Below, piece after piece: positions 8,160 through 33,274 of a DNA stretch of 34,848 nt. Each line of letters begins with the position of its first letter. Within the stretch, counting starts at the first letter, position 1. The stretch lies in the NCBI GenBank assembly GCA_013697735.1, contig JACCWH010000186.1, positions 1-34,848 on the forward strand, written 5' to 3'. The stretch comes from Trueperaceae bacterium (GTDB lineage Bacteria > Deinococcota > Deinococci > Deinococcales > Trueperaceae). A model generated the notes under the pieces. The model saw only the letters and a list, made by a program, of their open reading frames with translations. It was not told the DNA's origin and did not search any database. Made by a program: the position numbers and the translations under genes.

Positions 8160-8213
8160 GTTCGAGCGCGACCGCGCTGCGAGCCGTGGAACGGTCTTGG
8201 AACGCCCCCTCCG

Positions 8214-8225
8214 TAGGCTCGTCCC
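8214..8225 (+). promoter_or_regulatory. leaderless promoter of the 70-aa companion gene
   Basis: TAGGCT at 8214-8219 with a 6-nt spacer to GTG 8226. The same hexamer and spacing precede the YczE gene at 33409. It supports the small frame as a real gene with its own transcript. Confidence 0.6.
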
Positions 8226-8438
8226 GTGCCCACCGATCGCCTCCTCGGAAGCTTCCTTCTCCGCGTCGCCGTACGCGAGGGCGCGAGGAGCATCTCGCTC
8301 CACAGCGTCCTCACGGGCGATTCGCAGCGATTCACGAGCTTCGCGGAGTTGGCCACGCATCTCGATCGGGCGACCGGGAGCACACACGAGGGAGTCGGAT
8401 CGATCGACCCCGATCGGACCGGAACCGCCGAGCCGTAG
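8226..8438 (+). CDS. 70-aa companion protein of the BTAD activator
   Basis: A short protein starting at a GTG with its own leaderless promoter. Predicted layout: beta strand (LLGSFLLRVAVRE), second beta strand and turn (RSISLHSVLTGDSQRF), then a helix (SFAELATHLDRA), then a disordered acidic tail of about 22 residues (GSTHEGVGSIDPDRTGTAEP). It has no signal peptide and no cysteine. From memory, short proteins with an 'FLLR...LxxxxTGExxxFxSxxxLxxxL' pattern sit next to BTAD regulators in other Deinococcota and Chloroflexota; I cannot check this here. Its place 66 bp after the activator suggests a partner or modulator. The function is unknown. Confidence 0.7.
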   Translation: MPTDRLLGSFLLRVAVREGARSISLHSVLTGDSQRFTSFAELATHLDRATGSTHEGVGSIDPDRTGTAEP

Positions 8439-8491: not shown

Positions 8492-9058
8492 ATGAAGCAC
8501 GTCACGCACGCACTCTTCGCAGCACTCTTCACCCTCATGTTGGGGATCGGCGCCGCGCTCGCGCAGACCACCCACGAAGTGATGATGGTGACCGAGATGA
8601 TCGAAGGGCGCCCCATCCCGGCGTTCTACTTCGAGCCCGTCGGCCTCCTCATCCAACCGGGGGACACGGTCCGATTCGTGGCCGCTGGACCGCACCACAC
8701 GGCGACCGCCTACCACGGCCAGCACGTCAAGTCGCACAGGGTGCCCGAGGGCGTCGGACCCTTCTCCTCGCCCGTCGTGCCGGTCGGTGACGTGTGGGAG
8801 CACACGTTCGATGGTGCGGGGACGTACGACCTCTGGTGCGCACCGCACGAGCACTACGGCATGGCGATGCGCATCGTGGTGGGCGAGCCGGGCGGACCCG
8901 CCATGGCGCCCATCGACGACCGCAGTCCCGTGGGCGTGTACGCCAATGCGGCGCTCGTGCTGAGCGACCCTGCACTCGATCCGGCGCACATCCTCTCGAA
9001 CGGGAGCGTCTCCTGGGCGGAGATCTCGAGCGACGCCAAGGAACTGCCCGGGCAATAG
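8492..9058 (+). CDS. exported type-1 copper protein (plastocyanin/halocyanin-like cupredoxin)
   Basis: A 188-aa small blue-copper electron carrier. The signal peptide spans residues 1-24 with the ALA|Q cleavage site and no lipobox. The cupredoxin fold (about residues 28-135) has the copper ligands His69 (in GPHHTA), Cys116, His119 and Met124; the CAPHEHYGM spacing C-x2-H-x4-M is that of plastocyanin. About 55 further residues follow with no recognised domain. The start ATG has a good ribosome site, GGGAGG, at 8481-8486. It lies just before a Tat-exported flavoenzyme and a cytochrome c, so it probably carries electrons outside the membrane. Electron donor and acceptor are inferred only. Confidence 0.85.
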   Translation: MKHVTHALFAALFTLMLGIGAALAQTTHEVMMVTEMIEGRPIPAFYFEPVGLLIQPGDTVRFVAAGPHHTATAYHGQHVKSHRVPEGVGPFSSPVVPVGDVWEHTFDGAGTYDLWCAPHEHYGMAMRIVVGEPGGPAMAPIDDRSPVGVYANAALVLSDPALDPAHILSNGSVSWAEISSDAKELPGQ

Positions 9059-26738: not shown

Positions 26739-29513
26739 TCAGGTCGTCGAGATCATCGACACGAACGCCGCCGCCACGGCGGGATCGAAGTGGCGCCCTG
26801 ATTCGTCGACGACGTAGGCGAGTGCACGCTCCTTCGACCATGCCGGCCAGTAGGGGCGCTCCGACGTCAACGCGTCGTAGACGTCCGCAACGGCGAAGAT
26901 GCGCGCGGCGAGCGGAATCTCCTCGCCTGCGAGCGCGTTCGGATATCCGCTCCCGTCCCAGCGCTCATGGTGCGCGTACGGGATGGCGATGGCGTTACGA
27001 AGGAACTCGATCGGCGAGAGGAGTTCGTAGGCCGTGACCGGGTGGCTCCGCATCACTTCCCACTCCTCCGGACTCAGTTCCCCCGCCTTGAGCAGAATGC
27101 GATCGGGAATACCCATCTTGCCGATGTCGTGCAGGAGCGCGCCGCGCTTGAAGTCGATCAACGCGTCGCCGCTCACGCCCATGCGCTCGGCGAGGCGGAT
27201 CGTGAGCTCGGTGACGCGGCGACTGTGCCCCACCGTCTGGTGGTCCTTGAGCTCCAACGCGCGCGCCCACCCTTCGATGGTTGCGTCGTAGGCGTGTCGC
27301 AACTTGAGGTTGGAGACCTGCAGGGTGTTGAAGAGGCGCGCGTTGTTGAGTGCCAGCGCCGTCTGCGTCGCGAGCGTGTCGAGGAACTCGTACCAGCCGG
27401 GCTCACGTTCGTCGTGCGCTCTGTGGTAGAGCTCGAGCACGCCTTCGAGCTCCCCCTTCACGATGAGCGGGACGCCCCAATAGCTGCGGAAGTCCTCTTG
27501 CGTGAGGAGGTCGCGTCGCACGAAGCGACCCTCGCCCGCCTGCAGATCGCGCTCGTGGACCATGTGCCGATCCATTGACGCGCTCCCGAGGAGGCCCTCG
27601 CCGAGGTCGAGTTCCGACTCCCTGATCAGGGTCGTCCGGAAGCCGGCACCGGCCGCGAAGCGAAGCGTCTGCAGATCACCGCGGAACGTGAACACCGCCG
27701 CCGCGTCGACGCCGAGTTGCTCGCGCACATGACCGATGATCGTCCGCAGCACGATCGTCACGTCGGTCCCTTCGGCCATGGCCGTGTCGATCAGATGGAG
27801 GGCGTCGAGGCGTCGGACACGCGTTTCGAGCGCAGCCTCCGTCCGCCGGCGCTTCACCGCCTCCGCCAGCAGGTTGGAGACTGCCTGGACGAAGTCCGCG
27901 TCGGCGTCGTCGAACGTTCGCCCCTCGTCGCACGAGTAGACCGCGAGGACGCCATACGGACGCTCGGCCCCGTGGATCACCACGTTGATGCCACCGCGTA
28001 CGCCTGCTTCACGCAGCATGGGTGAGGGCCTGACGTCGCCGCCGACCCGCGTAAGATCCTCGACGATGAGCCTGCCACTCGTGCGGAGCGTGATGCCACT
28101 CGGTGTCGCGTCGTCGAGAGGCACGATGGTGCCGATCAACCCTTCCGGCAGTCCGCTGGCGGCTTCGAGCACGAAACCGTCTCCACCCGCGGCGTCGTCA
28201 CTGGAGCGGAGGATCTTACAGACGTCCAACGACAACACCTCGCAGAGACGTTCGATGGCGCTCTGCATGAGTTCGGCGACGTCGGTCGAACGGAGCGCTT
28301 CGATCCCGAGCTGGGCCACGGCCGCCTGCTGTGTGCTCCGGCGCTCGAGGTCGAGCGCCGCCACCTTGTGGTCGTGGACGTCGGTGGAGGTTCCGAACCA
28401 CGTGGTCACGCGGCCGGTCGAATCCGTCATCGGCAGTGCCCGACTGAAGTGCCAACGAAAGGCGCCGTCGTGCCGCTCGAGTCGGTGCTGGGAGGTATAG
28501 GGCGTGCCGTTCGCCACGGCGTGCGCCCAACGGGCGGCCGCCTCCGGTCGGTCGTCTGGGTGGATCACGGCGAGCCACCCCACGGCGTCGTCCCCGTTCG
28601 TGGGTCGTCCGGTGAATTCCTGCCAGCGGAGATTGTAGTACCGGACGACGCCGTCGGCTCCGGTCGTCCAGACGATCTGCGGCAGCGAATTCGCCAGCGT
28701 GCGGAAGTTCGTTTCGCTCTGTCGGGTGCGTTCCTCGGCCTCGACACGCTCCGTGACGTCGGTATCGATCCCGACGAGGCGCTCGGCCGCTCCCGTTGCG
28801 CCGTAGATCAGCCGACCGTGACTCCGGATCCAGCGCACGCCGCGCTCCGGGTGGACGATCCGATGCACGGTCTCGAAGGTCTCGAGGCGCTCCTCCAAGA
28901 GCCGCTGCATGAGCGCCGTGTCGGCTGCGAGGTCGTCGGGATGGAGCCTGCTCCGCCAGAGATCGAGCGAGGGTTCGGCCGCCGGCTCGAGGCCGTAGAA
29001 GTCGTGGGCAGCTTCGGGCCAACGTCCGGTACCGTCGAGGAGGTCGAGCTCCCACCAGACCGCGTCGCTCCGTTCGAAGGCTTCGCGGAGCCGCGCATCT
29101 CGTTCGCGGAGCTCCGTCTCGACCTCCTCCTGCTTGGTGACGTCGCGCCCGGTGAGGAGCACGTGCGTGACGACGCCGTGCTCGTCGCGAAGATGGGTGC
29201 CGTGCCACGACACCACGAACGTGCCGTCAGACCCGCCGGTGAGCTCGAGGCGCATCGGCTTCAGTGGCTGGCCGCTGCCGAGGACTTCGAGGCGCCTCAC
29301 CACCTCGTCACGGACCGGCTGCACCTCCGGGAGGTCCCAGAGCAAGCGACCGACCGGATCTTCCGTGGTGCTCGCGTAGGCGAGTGCCGCAGCATTCGCC
29401 ATGACGATCCTGCCGTCGAGCCCGACGACGATGACGGCGCCGTCGAGGTGCTCGATCACGCTGCGCCACGCCGGCGGAGCGAGGGCTGGGTCGTGATCCG
29501 TGGAGGAAGACAC
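26739..29513 (-). CDS. PAS-PAS-PAS-GAF-GAF-HD-GYP c-di-GMP phosphodiesterase
   Basis: A 924-aa cytoplasmic signalling protein. PAS1 (about residues 17-125; 'HLDGAVIVVGLDGRIVMANAAAL'), PAS2 (135-265; 'WWELDLLDGTGRWPEAAHDFYGL'), PAS3 (280-400; 'LPQIVWTTGADGVVRYYN'), two GAF domains (about 430-570 and 600-740) and a C-terminal HD-GYP domain. The HD-GYP motifs are intact: HSRRV, LLHDIGKMGI, RSHPVTAYELL, HHERWDGSGYPNAL. It should hydrolyse c-di-GMP when the sensor domains signal. There are no membrane helices, so the signal is internal (redox, small molecule or cyclic nucleotide). GTG 29513 is the likely start (TACCAT nine bases before); upstream in-frame starts would run into the divergent cysE gene. 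Confidence 0.9.
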   Translation of the reverse strand: MSSSTDHDPALAPPAWRSVIEHLDGAVIVVGLDGRIVMANAAALAYASTTEDPVGRLLWDLPEVQPVRDEVVRRLEVLGSGQPLKPMRLELTGGSDGTFVVSWHGTHLRDEHGVVTHVLLTGRDVTKQEEVETELRERDARLREAFERSDAVWWELDLLDGTGRWPEAAHDFYGLEPAAEPSLDLWRSRLHPDDLAADTALMQRLLEERLETFETVHRIVHPERGVRWIRSHGRLIYGATGAAERLVGIDTDVTERVEAEERTRQSETNFRTLANSLPQIVWTTGADGVVRYYNLRWQEFTGRPTNGDDAVGWLAVIHPDDRPEAAARWAHAVANGTPYTSQHRLERHDGAFRWHFSRALPMTDSTGRVTTWFGTSTDVHDHKVAALDLERRSTQQAAVAQLGIEALRSTDVAELMQSAIERLCEVLSLDVCKILRSSDDAAGGDGFVLEAASGLPEGLIGTIVPLDDATPSGITLRTSGRLIVEDLTRVGGDVRPSPMLREAGVRGGINVVIHGAERPYGVLAVYSCDEGRTFDDADADFVQAVSNLLAEAVKRRRTEAALETRVRRLDALHLIDTAMAEGTDVTIVLRTIIGHVREQLGVDAAAVFTFRGDLQTLRFAAGAGFRTTLIRESELDLGEGLLGSASMDRHMVHERDLQAGEGRFVRRDLLTQEDFRSYWGVPLIVKGELEGVLELYHRAHDEREPGWYEFLDTLATQTALALNNARLFNTLQVSNLKLRHAYDATIEGWARALELKDHQTVGHSRRVTELTIRLAERMGVSGDALIDFKRGALLHDIGKMGIPDRILLKAGELSPEEWEVMRSHPVTAYELLSPIEFLRNAIAIPYAHHERWDGSGYPNALAGEEIPLAARIFAVADVYDALTSERPYWPAWSKERALAYVVDESGRHFDPAVAAAFVSMISTT

Positions 29514-29617
29514 GCTCGGCGGATGGTATCCGGTCGCGTGCGTCGCGACCCGGATGCTCGTCACATCGACGCGTGGCGCGACGGGTGGGGCAGCCGCCAT
29601 GCGCGATGATGCGACGC

Positions 29618-30472
29618 ATGACGACGCTCCGAGGTTCGGACTTCTTGCGCGAACGATTCGAGGCCCATCGGTCCTGTTCCGGGTGCCCGTCCCCCGAGCG
29701 CGTCGCACGGTGGTTCGACGGCCTCCTCACGCTCCTCTTCCCGGACCTCGCGAGTCGGTCTTTCGAGTCGCTCGCGGAGCTCGAAGTCGAGGCGGAGCGT
29801 CTGGAAGGCGAACTGGCGGGTGTGGTCGCGCGCATTCCAGAGCCGATCGAGGCTCGCGACGCCATGGTGCCTGCGTTCTTTCGGACGCTCCCCAGCATCG
29901 TCGCCCACCTCGAGGAAGACGTGAGCGCCACCTTCGAAGGGGATCCGGCCGCAGTGAGCCGATCGGAGGTCGTGCGGTCGTACCCGGGCTTCCATGCGAT
30001 CGCCGCGTATCGCGTCGCGCACGCGCTCCATCGCCTCGGGCTGCCGATCGTGCCGCGCATGATCACGGAGCTCGCGCACGGCCGCACGGGCATCGACATC
30101 CACCCCGCCGCGTTGATCGGCCGGTACTTCTGCATCGATCACGGCACCGGCGTCGTGATCGGCGAGACCGCCGAGATCGGCGACCGCGTCAAGCTCTACC
30201 AGGGTGTCACGCTCGGTGCCATGAGCGTACGCAAGGGCGACGCGCGCACCAAGCGCCATCCGACCATCGAATCCGACGTCGTCGTCTACGCCGGCGCCAC
30301 GATCCTCGGTGGTGCGACGCGGATCGGGCAGGGAAGCACGATCGGCGGGAACGTCTGGCTCACGCGGAGCGTGCCAGCGAACACGACGCTCCACTACCAG
30401 GAGCGCCTGCTCGACGCCGGGGTGGGGGAGACGGCTACCCCCCTCAAACCGCGAGGTGCGGCGTGCGATTGA
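29618..30472 (+). CDS. cysE: serine O-acetyltransferase
   Basis: A 284-aa enzyme that makes O-acetylserine from serine and acetyl-CoA, the first step of cysteine synthesis. The N-terminal helical region (about 150 residues) is long, like the EpsC type. The left-handed beta-helix has GIDIHPAALIGRYFCIDHGTGVVIGET with the catalytic His, 'VKLYQGVTLGA', 'KRHPTIESDVVVYAGATILG' and 'IGGNVWLTRSVP'. The C-terminus likely binds the partner synthase. The start ATG follows a GATGAT -10-like box with a 7-nt spacer, a weaker leaderless-type promoter. It overlaps cysM by 10 bases and is divergent from the PAS-HD-GYP gene. Confidence 0.93.
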   Translation: MTTLRGSDFLRERFEAHRSCSGCPSPERVARWFDGLLTLLFPDLASRSFESLAELEVEAERLEGELAGVVARIPEPIEARDAMVPAFFRTLPSIVAHLEEDVSATFEGDPAAVSRSEVVRSYPGFHAIAAYRVAHALHRLGLPIVPRMITELAHGRTGIDIHPAALIGRYFCIDHGTGVVIGETAEIGDRVKLYQGVTLGAMSVRKGDARTKRHPTIESDVVVYAGATILGGATRIGQGSTIGGNVWLTRSVPANTTLHYQERLLDAGVGETATPLKPRGAACD

Positions 30473-31456: not shown

Positions 31457-31486
31457 TCCAGGGGGAGGTTCGTGTACAAGGAGCAT

Positions 31487-33274
31487 ATGGCTGACGAGTC
31501 ATCGGTCGATGCCGCGGCGTCCGTCGTGGTCGAACCCGACCTCGTACCCGGACTGCGAGCGCCGACGTTCCTGGCGGACACGTTGCCACAGATCGTCTGG
31601 ACCGCGGATGCGGCGGGCGACGTCACGTACTTCAACCGCTCCTGGTACGAGTACACGGGGTTGAGCCCGATGCAATCGGTCGGTTCGGGATTCCTCCAGG
31701 TCCTCCATCCGTCCGACGTCGAACGGACCGCGGCGCGCTGGGAGCGTGCCTGGCGCGACGGGGAGCCGTACGAGATAGAGTATCGCTTGCGCTCTGGAGT
31801 CGACGGTGAACATCGCTGGTTCTTGGCACGCGCGAATGCCGTCCGCGATGAATGCGGCCGGATCGTGCAGTGGTCGGGCACGTCGACGGACATCGACGAG
31901 CAGAAGCGGTTCGAGGAGCAGGTTCGTCGATACGCGGCGGAGTTGAAGGAGAGTCGGGCGGAGCTGACGCGCCTCGCGCGTCACGATGCGCTCACTGGAC
32001 TCCCGAACCGGATGCTCTTCGAAGATCGACTGCAGCAGGCGCTCGTGAGCGCCGACCGGCACGGGCAGATGGTCGGTGTCTTCTTCATCGACCTCGACGG
32101 CTTCAAGCGAGTGAACGATACGCTCGGCCACCACACCGGGGACGCGTTGCTGTGCGAGGTCGCTCGTCGCCTCGCGACCGGACTGCGCGCGACCGATACG
32201 CTCGCACGACTCGGTGGCGACGAGTTCGTGGTGCTCGCATTGGAGATCGAGCGGCCCCACGACGCCATAGCGCTCGCGCGCAAGCTGCTCGCGCACGTCG
32301 CCGAGCCGTTCGAACTCGAGGGGGGTCGGGTCCGCATGTCGGCATCGATAGGGGTGAGCATCTATCCCCGCGACGCCGACGGCGCATCCACACTGCTGCG
32401 GCATGCCGACGTCGCGATGTACCGGGCGAAACAGAGTGGCAAGAACGACGCTCGCTTCTACGCCCCCGAGATGAACGCGAGTGCCCAGGAGCGGATGTCG
32501 ATCGCCACGCGCCTCGACGGCGCGCTCGAGCGTGGCGAGATGTCGTTGCGCTTTCAGCCGCAGTGGGACACGCGCTCCCGGAGCGTCGACTCCTTCGAGG
32601 CGCTGCTCCGCTGGAACAACCCGGAGCTCGGTGAGGTGGCCCCCGAGCGATTCGTGCCCGTGGCCGAAGACAACGGCATGATCCTAGCGCTCTGTGAGTG
32701 GGTGCTCGACGGCAGCTGTCGCGAGGCCGTTCGCTGGTCGAAGGCCTCGGGACGCGCCGTGCGCGTGGCGATGAACGTCTCGCTCGTCCAGCTCGACCGT
32801 GACGATTTCGTGCCGATGGTGTCGCGCGCGCTCGACCGACACGCATTGCCGCCGCAGCAACTCGAGCTCGAGCTCACTGCGCGCATGGGAACCTACGACG
32901 TGCTCGCGGCCCACGGCAAGATGGCGGCGCTCCGCGAGCTCGGGGTGCGACTCACGATGGACGACTTCGGCACGCCGTACTCGACGATCGACCACGTCCT
33001 GCGTCTGCCGCTCGACGCTCTCAAGGTCGACCAGCGGATCGTGCACGATCTCGAAGACGCACCGCGCGAAGGGTCCGAACGCGTGATGCGGGCTCTGGTG
33101 GGCCTGGCGCACTCGCTCGGTCTGGACGTGGTGGCCGACGGCATCGAAACGGACGCGCAACGCCGTTCGGTGATCGAACTCGGTTGCGGCCGGCTCCAGG
33201 GCTACCTCCTCGGTGAGCCGATGCTCGCTGAAGAGGCAGGCGTGCTGCTGGGGGCAGAACCGGCCGGGGAGTGA
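31487..33274 (+). CDS. PAS-GGDEF-EAL protein; active-looking cyclase, altered EAL domain
   Basis: A 595-aa c-di-GMP protein. PAS at about residues 30-145 (LPQIVWTADAAGDVTYFN), a linker helix, GGDEF at about 160-325 with intact LGGDEF (243-247) and the feedback I-site RATD exactly five residues before it. EAL at about 340-590: EALLR (371-375) and NVS are kept, but ExTE is ELTA (462-465), DDFGTGYSS is DDFGTPYST (492-500) and AEGVE is ADGIE (550-554). The cyclase should work; phosphodiesterase activity is doubtful and the EAL may bind c-di-GMP instead. The ATG has AAGGAG; GTG 31472 is an alternative start. There are no membrane segments. Confidence 0.88.
   Translation: MADESSVDAAASVVVEPDLVPGLRAPTFLADTLPQIVWTADAAGDVTYFNRSWYEYTGLSPMQSVGSGFLQVLHPSDVERTAARWERAWRDGEPYEIEYRLRSGVDGEHRWFLARANAVRDECGRIVQWSGTSTDIDEQKRFEEQVRRYAAELKESRAELTRLARHDALTGLPNRMLFEDRLQQALVSADRHGQMVGVFFIDLDGFKRVNDTLGHHTGDALLCEVARRLATGLRATDTLARLGGDEFVVLALEIERPHDAIALARKLLAHVAEPFELEGGRVRMSASIGVSIYPRDADGASTLLRHADVAMYRAKQSGKNDARFYAPEMNASAQERMSIATRLDGALERGEMSLRFQPQWDTRSRSVDSFEALLRWNNPELGEVAPERFVPVAEDNGMILALCEWVLDGSCREAVRWSKASGRAVRVAMNVSLVQLDRDDFVPMVSRALDRHALPPQQLELELTARMGTYDVLAAHGKMAALRELGVRLTMDDFGTPYSTIDHVLRLPLDALKVDQRIVHDLEDAPREGSERVMRALVGLAHSLGLDVVADGIETDAQRRSVIELGCGRLQGYLLGEPMLAEEAGVLLGAEPAGE

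Follow-up and report, generated by a model that had tools for sequence, protein, structure and literature searches.

What does a protein of 70 residues do beside a large transcriptional activator, and what does the promoter in front of its gene reveal about that role? These questions are raised by a 34,848-nt contig of a Trueperaceae bacterium (hereafter the window), in which 66 bp separate the stop codon of an ORF encoding 1038 residues from a short ORF on the same strand (Table 1). An initial annotation had read the short product as a conserved partner of the activator, such as a ligand-binding or inhibitory subunit of the NB-ARC regulator.

Table 1. Features of the activator and small-gene locus, in window coordinates
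Feature	Position	Strand	Remarks
Predicted SARP-type STAND activator, 1038 aa	5043..8159	+	Winged helix and BTAD (~1-235), NB-ARC/AAA_16 (~255-570), TPR C terminus
Upstream heptamer TGGAACG of putative SARP-type operator	8187..8193	+	Exact pattern match
Downstream heptamer TGGAACG	8198..8204	+	Offset of 11 bp from the first; gap of 9 nt to the -10 (8 nt in the register GGAACGC)
-10-like hexamer TAGGCT	8214..8219	+	At a constant distance from the start codon in relatives
Small BTAD-associated protein gene	8226..8438	+	70 aa; leaderless, with the GTG at the inferred transcription start
Predicted secreted plastocyanin-like cupredoxin	8492..9058	+	Copper-bind domain; 53-bp gap with GGGAGG Shine-Dalgarno

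The pattern of substitution indicates that the short ORF is a real gene, because its homologue at the same position in another genome of the genus (60-65% identity) differs from it with a dN of 0.22 and a dS of 0.75 (dN/dS ~0.3), and the two other reading frames are not conserved. AlphaFold2, run with 47 natural relatives, predicts strands at residues 10-17, 20-27, and 33-36 and a helix at residues 39-55, with a pLDDT of ~90 or more over residues 10-50 and ~50 in the tail. The core proposed in the initial annotation is therefore predicted with confidence, although as β-β-β-α and not as β-β-α; the tail is disordered and mildly acidic, as had been described, and is unconserved. Searches of Pfam, NCBIfam, PHROGs, PDB sequences, and PDB folds gave no significant match to the small protein, which is a member of a family absent from Pfam and NCBIfam and so points to a gap in Pfam. 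The viral contigs searched hold no relative, and the plasmids searched hold no small relative. Two Pfam candidates, zf-C2H2_FBX41 and TniQ, were set aside as below the cut-off and seen with one member only. Matches on contigs C31 and C142 of the same genome lie within unrelated long ORFs and are attributed to chance; a match on C56 is weaker still.

The large neighbor has the features of a SARP (winged helix plus BTAD) equipped with an NB-ARC switch and a TPR sensor. Pfam recognizes BTAD at 39.6 bits (cut-off 22.1), NB-ARC at 25.7 (cut-off 23.5), and TPR_12 at 56.2. An AlphaFold2 model of residues 1-245 (pLDDT 94) shows a winged helix and BTAD fold, for which Foldseek returned AfsR on the afsS promoter as the best match (8k60/8hvr, E ~1e-8) followed by EmbR (E ~1e-7), and a sequence profile of the N-terminal region (A6) found AfsR 8hvr at 1.6e-9. 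Three features of an AfsR-type SARP are thus present: winged helix with BTAD, NB-ARC with TPR, and the geometry of the operator repeat. Activators of the SARP/STAND class abound, and for most of them little is understood of how they are turned on or held in check.

The promoter of the small gene reads TGGAACG-gtct-TGGAACG-ccccctccg-TAGGCT-cgtccc-GTG. The -10-like TAGGCT ends 6 nt before the GTG, which agrees with the leaderless start proposed earlier. That annotation had also called the promoter strong; the -10-like element is there, but a σ70 promoter scan found no -35 box, and a SARP-type direct repeat (8187-8204) is present instead. With the repeat standing in place of a σ70 -35 element, the promoter is most likely activator-dependent. 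Terminator and Rfam scans returned nothing. SARP sites follow a rule of direct repeats 11 bp apart with the 3' repeat 8 bp from the -10, and the AfsR box on afsS, a promoter with poor -35 and -10 elements, extends from -40 to -19, centered at -29.5 (PMC10936776). Taking 8226 as the start, the 22-bp box at 8186-8207 likewise spans -40 to -19. Because the geometry follows the SARP rule, the fold is that of a SARP, and the activator is homologous to AfsR, we consider with high confidence that the small gene is a direct target of its neighbor.

The spacing of the repeat is shared by relatives. Among 50 distinct upstream regions, heptamer pairs with a period of 11 placed anywhere in 75 nt were perfect in 24 and matched at 6/7 or better in 39, as against 0-3 and 0-8, respectively, at other periods. 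At a fixed distance from the start codon, the operator was found in 36/50 relatives at period 11 and in 0-3/50 at ten other periods; the control periods were run by the identical procedure, because some start codons had been chosen partly with the operator in view. Held-out promoters gave 13/33 at the fixed position, compared with 0-2 at other periods. The commonest layout among relatives is heptamer-4-heptamer-9-(-10)-6-start codon. The heptamer itself varies by locus (TGGAACG, TGCAACG, TGAAACG, CGTAACG, and TGTGACG; common form YGNNACG), whereas the two copies within one locus match each other, as expected of a dimer site. In 39 genomes of the family, the pattern of repeat plus -10 occurs 19 times and the reversed pattern never, which indicates that the exact repeat before the small gene does not reflect chance. 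Residue 65 of the activator's recognition helix has the highest mutual information with repeat bases 3-4 over the first 30 loci. A one-residue recognition code pairing K65 with TGG was tried and failed on held-out regulators, in which Q65 stands beside TGGAACG sites. As a motif, heptamer-4-heptamer-9-TANNNT offers a simple tool for regulon mapping, and a small partner whose promoter carries the operator provides a regulator-target pair ready for in vitro testing.

A profile built from nine relatives of the small protein matched in 34 of 111 Deinococcota genomes, and the surroundings of 51 matches were searched for homologues of the window's regulator and then with a wider profile. A BTAD gene adjoins 43/51 relatives: 35 have the regulator directly upstream (same strand, within 300 bp), 6 have it directly downstream, and 2 have it divergently oriented. 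In a held-out set of 35 further loci of the phylum, previously unused and drawn from a second profile, 23 are adjacent to a BTAD gene (the small gene directly downstream in 20) and about a third are not. Since the genome of the window has 9 BTAD matches in 3.5 Mb, we estimate the chance adjacency of a random gene at ~1%; the small family lies beside BTAD genes far more often than that. The profile search and adjacency count called for by the initial annotation hence bear out its conserved, BTAD-linked family and contradict the alternative of a protein with no homologues or no such link. The presence of a BTAD gene does not by itself predict the small gene or the operator, as most of 23 usable BTAD-centered loci have neither; some loci are interrupted by contig ends.

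Regulator and small protein appear to diverge together. They share the same nearest neighbor in 18/35 loci, and the correlation between them was reached by 0/2000 permutations in a test that retains shared ancestry. Paralogous activators within one genome (G018) each have their own diverged copy of the small protein. Two subgroups deserve separate mention. Small genes whose products start with VTLAFIVR (L098, L101, L105, L106) directly precede the BTAD gene, have a Shine-Dalgarno sequence and no operator, and are for these reasons probably co-transcribed with the regulator. In another subgroup (L091, L097, L109-L112, L114, L117, L120), many small proteins end in a near-identical tripeptide (GLR, GVR, GLK, or ELR), and these adjoin one subfamily of BTAD regulators.

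The contig scan returned Deinococcota only; other phyla surfaced in a separate genome search, in which five of ~280 genomes outside the phylum gave weak matches. The occurrence of similar proteins beside BTAD genes in other phyla, which the initial annotation had raised, was thereby found in two further phyla, with most of the small genes adjacent to a BTAD gene. In G208 the small gene lies 146 bp downstream of a gene for a 1145-aa regulator, an arrangement repeated in two further genomes of that phylum, and the regulators there carry BTAD at the C terminus, following a MalT-like NTPase-TPR part. Of 15 loci in the phylum of G194, ~9 adjoin regulators of ~1100 aa, often divergently, and at eight loci the small domain continues in frame into the N terminus of a short-chain dehydrogenase (SDR). 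Loci with this fusion (L261-L267, L270, L274) are often beside, and divergent from, a BTAD gene. Pfam detects BTAD in 8/8 of the partner regulators that were tested, which come from several loci and phyla. Because some partners (L215, L239) have no NTPase domain recognizable in Pfam, the BTAD/SARP part, and not the NB-ARC part, appears to be the constant partner of the small protein.

What follows the small gene gives a view of the regulon. The cupredoxin gene is probably co-transcribed with it, and the order is kept in G001, G012, G021, and G026. The last three of these genomes have the small gene with the cupredoxin, and the closest homologue of the window's regulator lies elsewhere. In G016 and G023 the operator directly precedes the cupredoxin gene with no small gene between them and overlaps the 3' end of the regulator gene. 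A search of 39 family genomes with TGGAACG-N4-TGGAACG-N7..10-TANNNT placed the motif before the small gene with cupredoxin, cupredoxin alone, c-type cytochromes (G000 C10, G032 C6), and a secreted 225-aa protein; in G032 the operator sits between a divergent regulator gene and the cytochrome gene. Since the same site precedes cupredoxin, c-type cytochromes, and the secreted protein, the activator's predicted regulon extends beyond the small gene, and the Trueperaceae module predicts an electron-transfer regulon (cupredoxin, c-type cytochromes). At other loci the small gene is followed by different genes, including those for a WD40 propeller, an M28 peptidase, GGDEF, DinB, AcrB, and TMEM175 proteins, and others.

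Several further loci were observed along the way. The sole other full TGGAACG operator with a -10 in the genome of the window (C10:21673-21705, minus strand; L021, L145) lies before a di-haem c-type cytochrome gene and suggests that the window's activator governs a redox regulon. A secreted, internally duplicated protein of ~225 aa (GIHWGAPGPHVTLGV ... IGWYPWFDQPEGEPMEL), for which Pfam gave no match, recurs behind TGGAACG operators in several Trueperaceae (L163, L148, L162, and others). On C12 of the same genome (L140 1631, minus strand), a second BTAD regulator gene precedes an 11-bp repeat with a TAGGAT -10, beyond which lies the gene of a berberine-bridge-type FAD oxidase. Plasmid pMESIL01 of Allomeiothermus silvanus (L195 6600-9085), reached through the BTAD search, has a BTAD gene, an 11-bp repeat with a -10, and then an operon of monooxygenase, GYD, SRPBCC, DUF5602, and cytochrome c genes, which ends in the last two. 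Elsewhere in the window, a PAS/GAF/HD sensor (HD_5, HD-GYP-like; 26742-29708, minus strand) lies near a PAS-GGDEF-EAL protein (31472-33271, plus strand), and the pair is likely a cyclic-di-GMP cluster.

With the small gene beside the regulator and a SARP operator in its own promoter, the layout is that of afsR-afsS, and the neighboring SARP/STAND activator very probably has the small gene as its first target, in a module of this kind outside Actinobacteria. We further propose, with about an even chance of being right, that the two genes form a regulatory module in which the small protein is a feedback modulator. A ligand would trigger the STAND switch of the activator, which would then dimerize side by side on the two heptamers and replace -35 recognition. 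The leaderless mRNA would start at the GTG of the small gene and run on into the cupredoxin gene, and the β-β-β-α protein, as the first product of the activator, would act back on the SARP part of that same activator and not in the output pathway. Feedback on its own activator is favored because the small protein is the constant neighbor of BTAD regulators, whereas the other targets vary; co-divergence, variable downstream genes, and separate copies for paralogues together favor feedback, since they make a role connected with the regulator more likely than a role in a pathway. The six loci with the small gene immediately upstream of a BTAD gene also count in its favor. Counted against it are the genomes that have regulator, site, and cupredoxin without the small gene (G016, G023), those with the small gene apart from the closest regulator homologue (G012, G021, G026), the small genes of the upstream set that lack an operator (such as L098, L105, and L106), and the held-out relatives, about a third of that set, that are not adjacent to a BTAD gene. 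The feedback step is plausible on the genomic association, as is the binding or inhibition of the activator by the small protein.

The same architecture could serve a different end. AfsS, a protein of 63 aa, is a direct AfsR target and acts downstream (PMC6988585, PMC10972967), and the small protein could likewise be a downstream effector that passes the signal on, perhaps through contact with RNA polymerase or other promoters, instead of acting on the activator. The small gene stays with target operons in G012, G021, and G026, and the fusion to the SDR N terminus beside BTAD genes in another phylum fits output at least as well as feedback. We nonetheless hold this role to be rather unlikely, as the other targets change between loci while the small protein stays, and the paralogous activators of G018 each keep their own diverged copy. 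The subunit reading of the initial annotation could appeal to the strong adjacency and co-divergence and to the precedent of MalT, a STAND activator held inactive by partner proteins. It is improbable, however, because the small gene does not always accompany the regulator: G016 and G023 retain regulator, site, and cupredoxin in its absence, and most BTAD genes of the same genomes have no small gene adjacent (in the genome of the window, 2/9 do). Some partner regulators have no recognizable NTPase, and activator-controlled expression fits feedback better than a stoichiometric subunit. Its absence beside a regulator that has the site, together with its position away from the closest regulator homologue in three genomes, indicates that the small protein is not an obligate subunit.

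The short ORF might instead be a passive leader that mainly allows a leaderless mRNA to start and feeds ribosomes into the cupredoxin gene. The leaderless start and the short gap fit such a role, and the operator drives cupredoxin directly in the two genomes without the small gene. Yet conservation of sequence (dN/dS ~0.3), of fold, and across phyla exceeds the needs of a leader, and the downstream genes differ between loci, which makes this explanation very improbable. Finally, STAND NTPases with TPRs also serve in phage defense, where the small protein could be a toxin, an antitoxin, or an accessory. This we find scarcely credible, given that a PADLOC scan matched the regulator by a generic TPR entry only and did not match the small protein, PHROGs gave no match for the window protein, and the regulon consists of redox and secreted proteins.

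Returning to feedback modulation, we suggest as a tentative generalization that a widespread, undescribed family of small proteins provides SARP/BTAD regulators in at least three phyla with private feedback partners, each regulator having its own 11-bp repeat and its own copy, and that afsR-afsS is one variant of this scheme. A literature search of open-licence papers found no description of a BTAD regulator paired with such a protein, and the pair has probably not been described by others.

Among known systems, EmbR of Mycobacterium tuberculosis has the same winged helix and BTAD fold, with an FHA domain instead of NB-ARC/TPR, and we know of no small partner of the present family for it. The SARP-LAL regulators PimR, SanG, and PolR combine a SARP domain with a STAND-type ATPase and use heptameric direct repeats with 4-nt spacers, but their targets are biosynthetic or regulator genes and not a gene for a small protein. 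MalT with its protein inhibitors resembles the subunit reading, as a STAND activator held in check by partner proteins; it differs in having a DNA-binding domain of the LuxR type and inhibitors that are not small proteins encoded alongside it. MalT is a typical STAND protein (PMC4381067). The closest likeness is to AfsR-afsS of Streptomyces coelicolor: N-terminal SARP, NOD, and TPR in a protein of 993 aa, compared with 1038 aa here; an adjacent small gene of 63 codons (AfsS), compared with 70; and a pair of direct repeats with a period of 11 bp right before the -10, with a poor -35. The mode of action of AfsS is still an open question. The two systems are likened by layout, with no homology claimed; AfsS is described as σ factor-like, and the present protein has a conserved β-β-β-α fold. 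The module in Deinococcota also differs in lying outside any antibiotic cluster, in a repeat of the form YGNNACG and not CGTT(T/C)ATCG, in the leaderless small gene, and in the private copy of that gene that each of many paralogous activators has.
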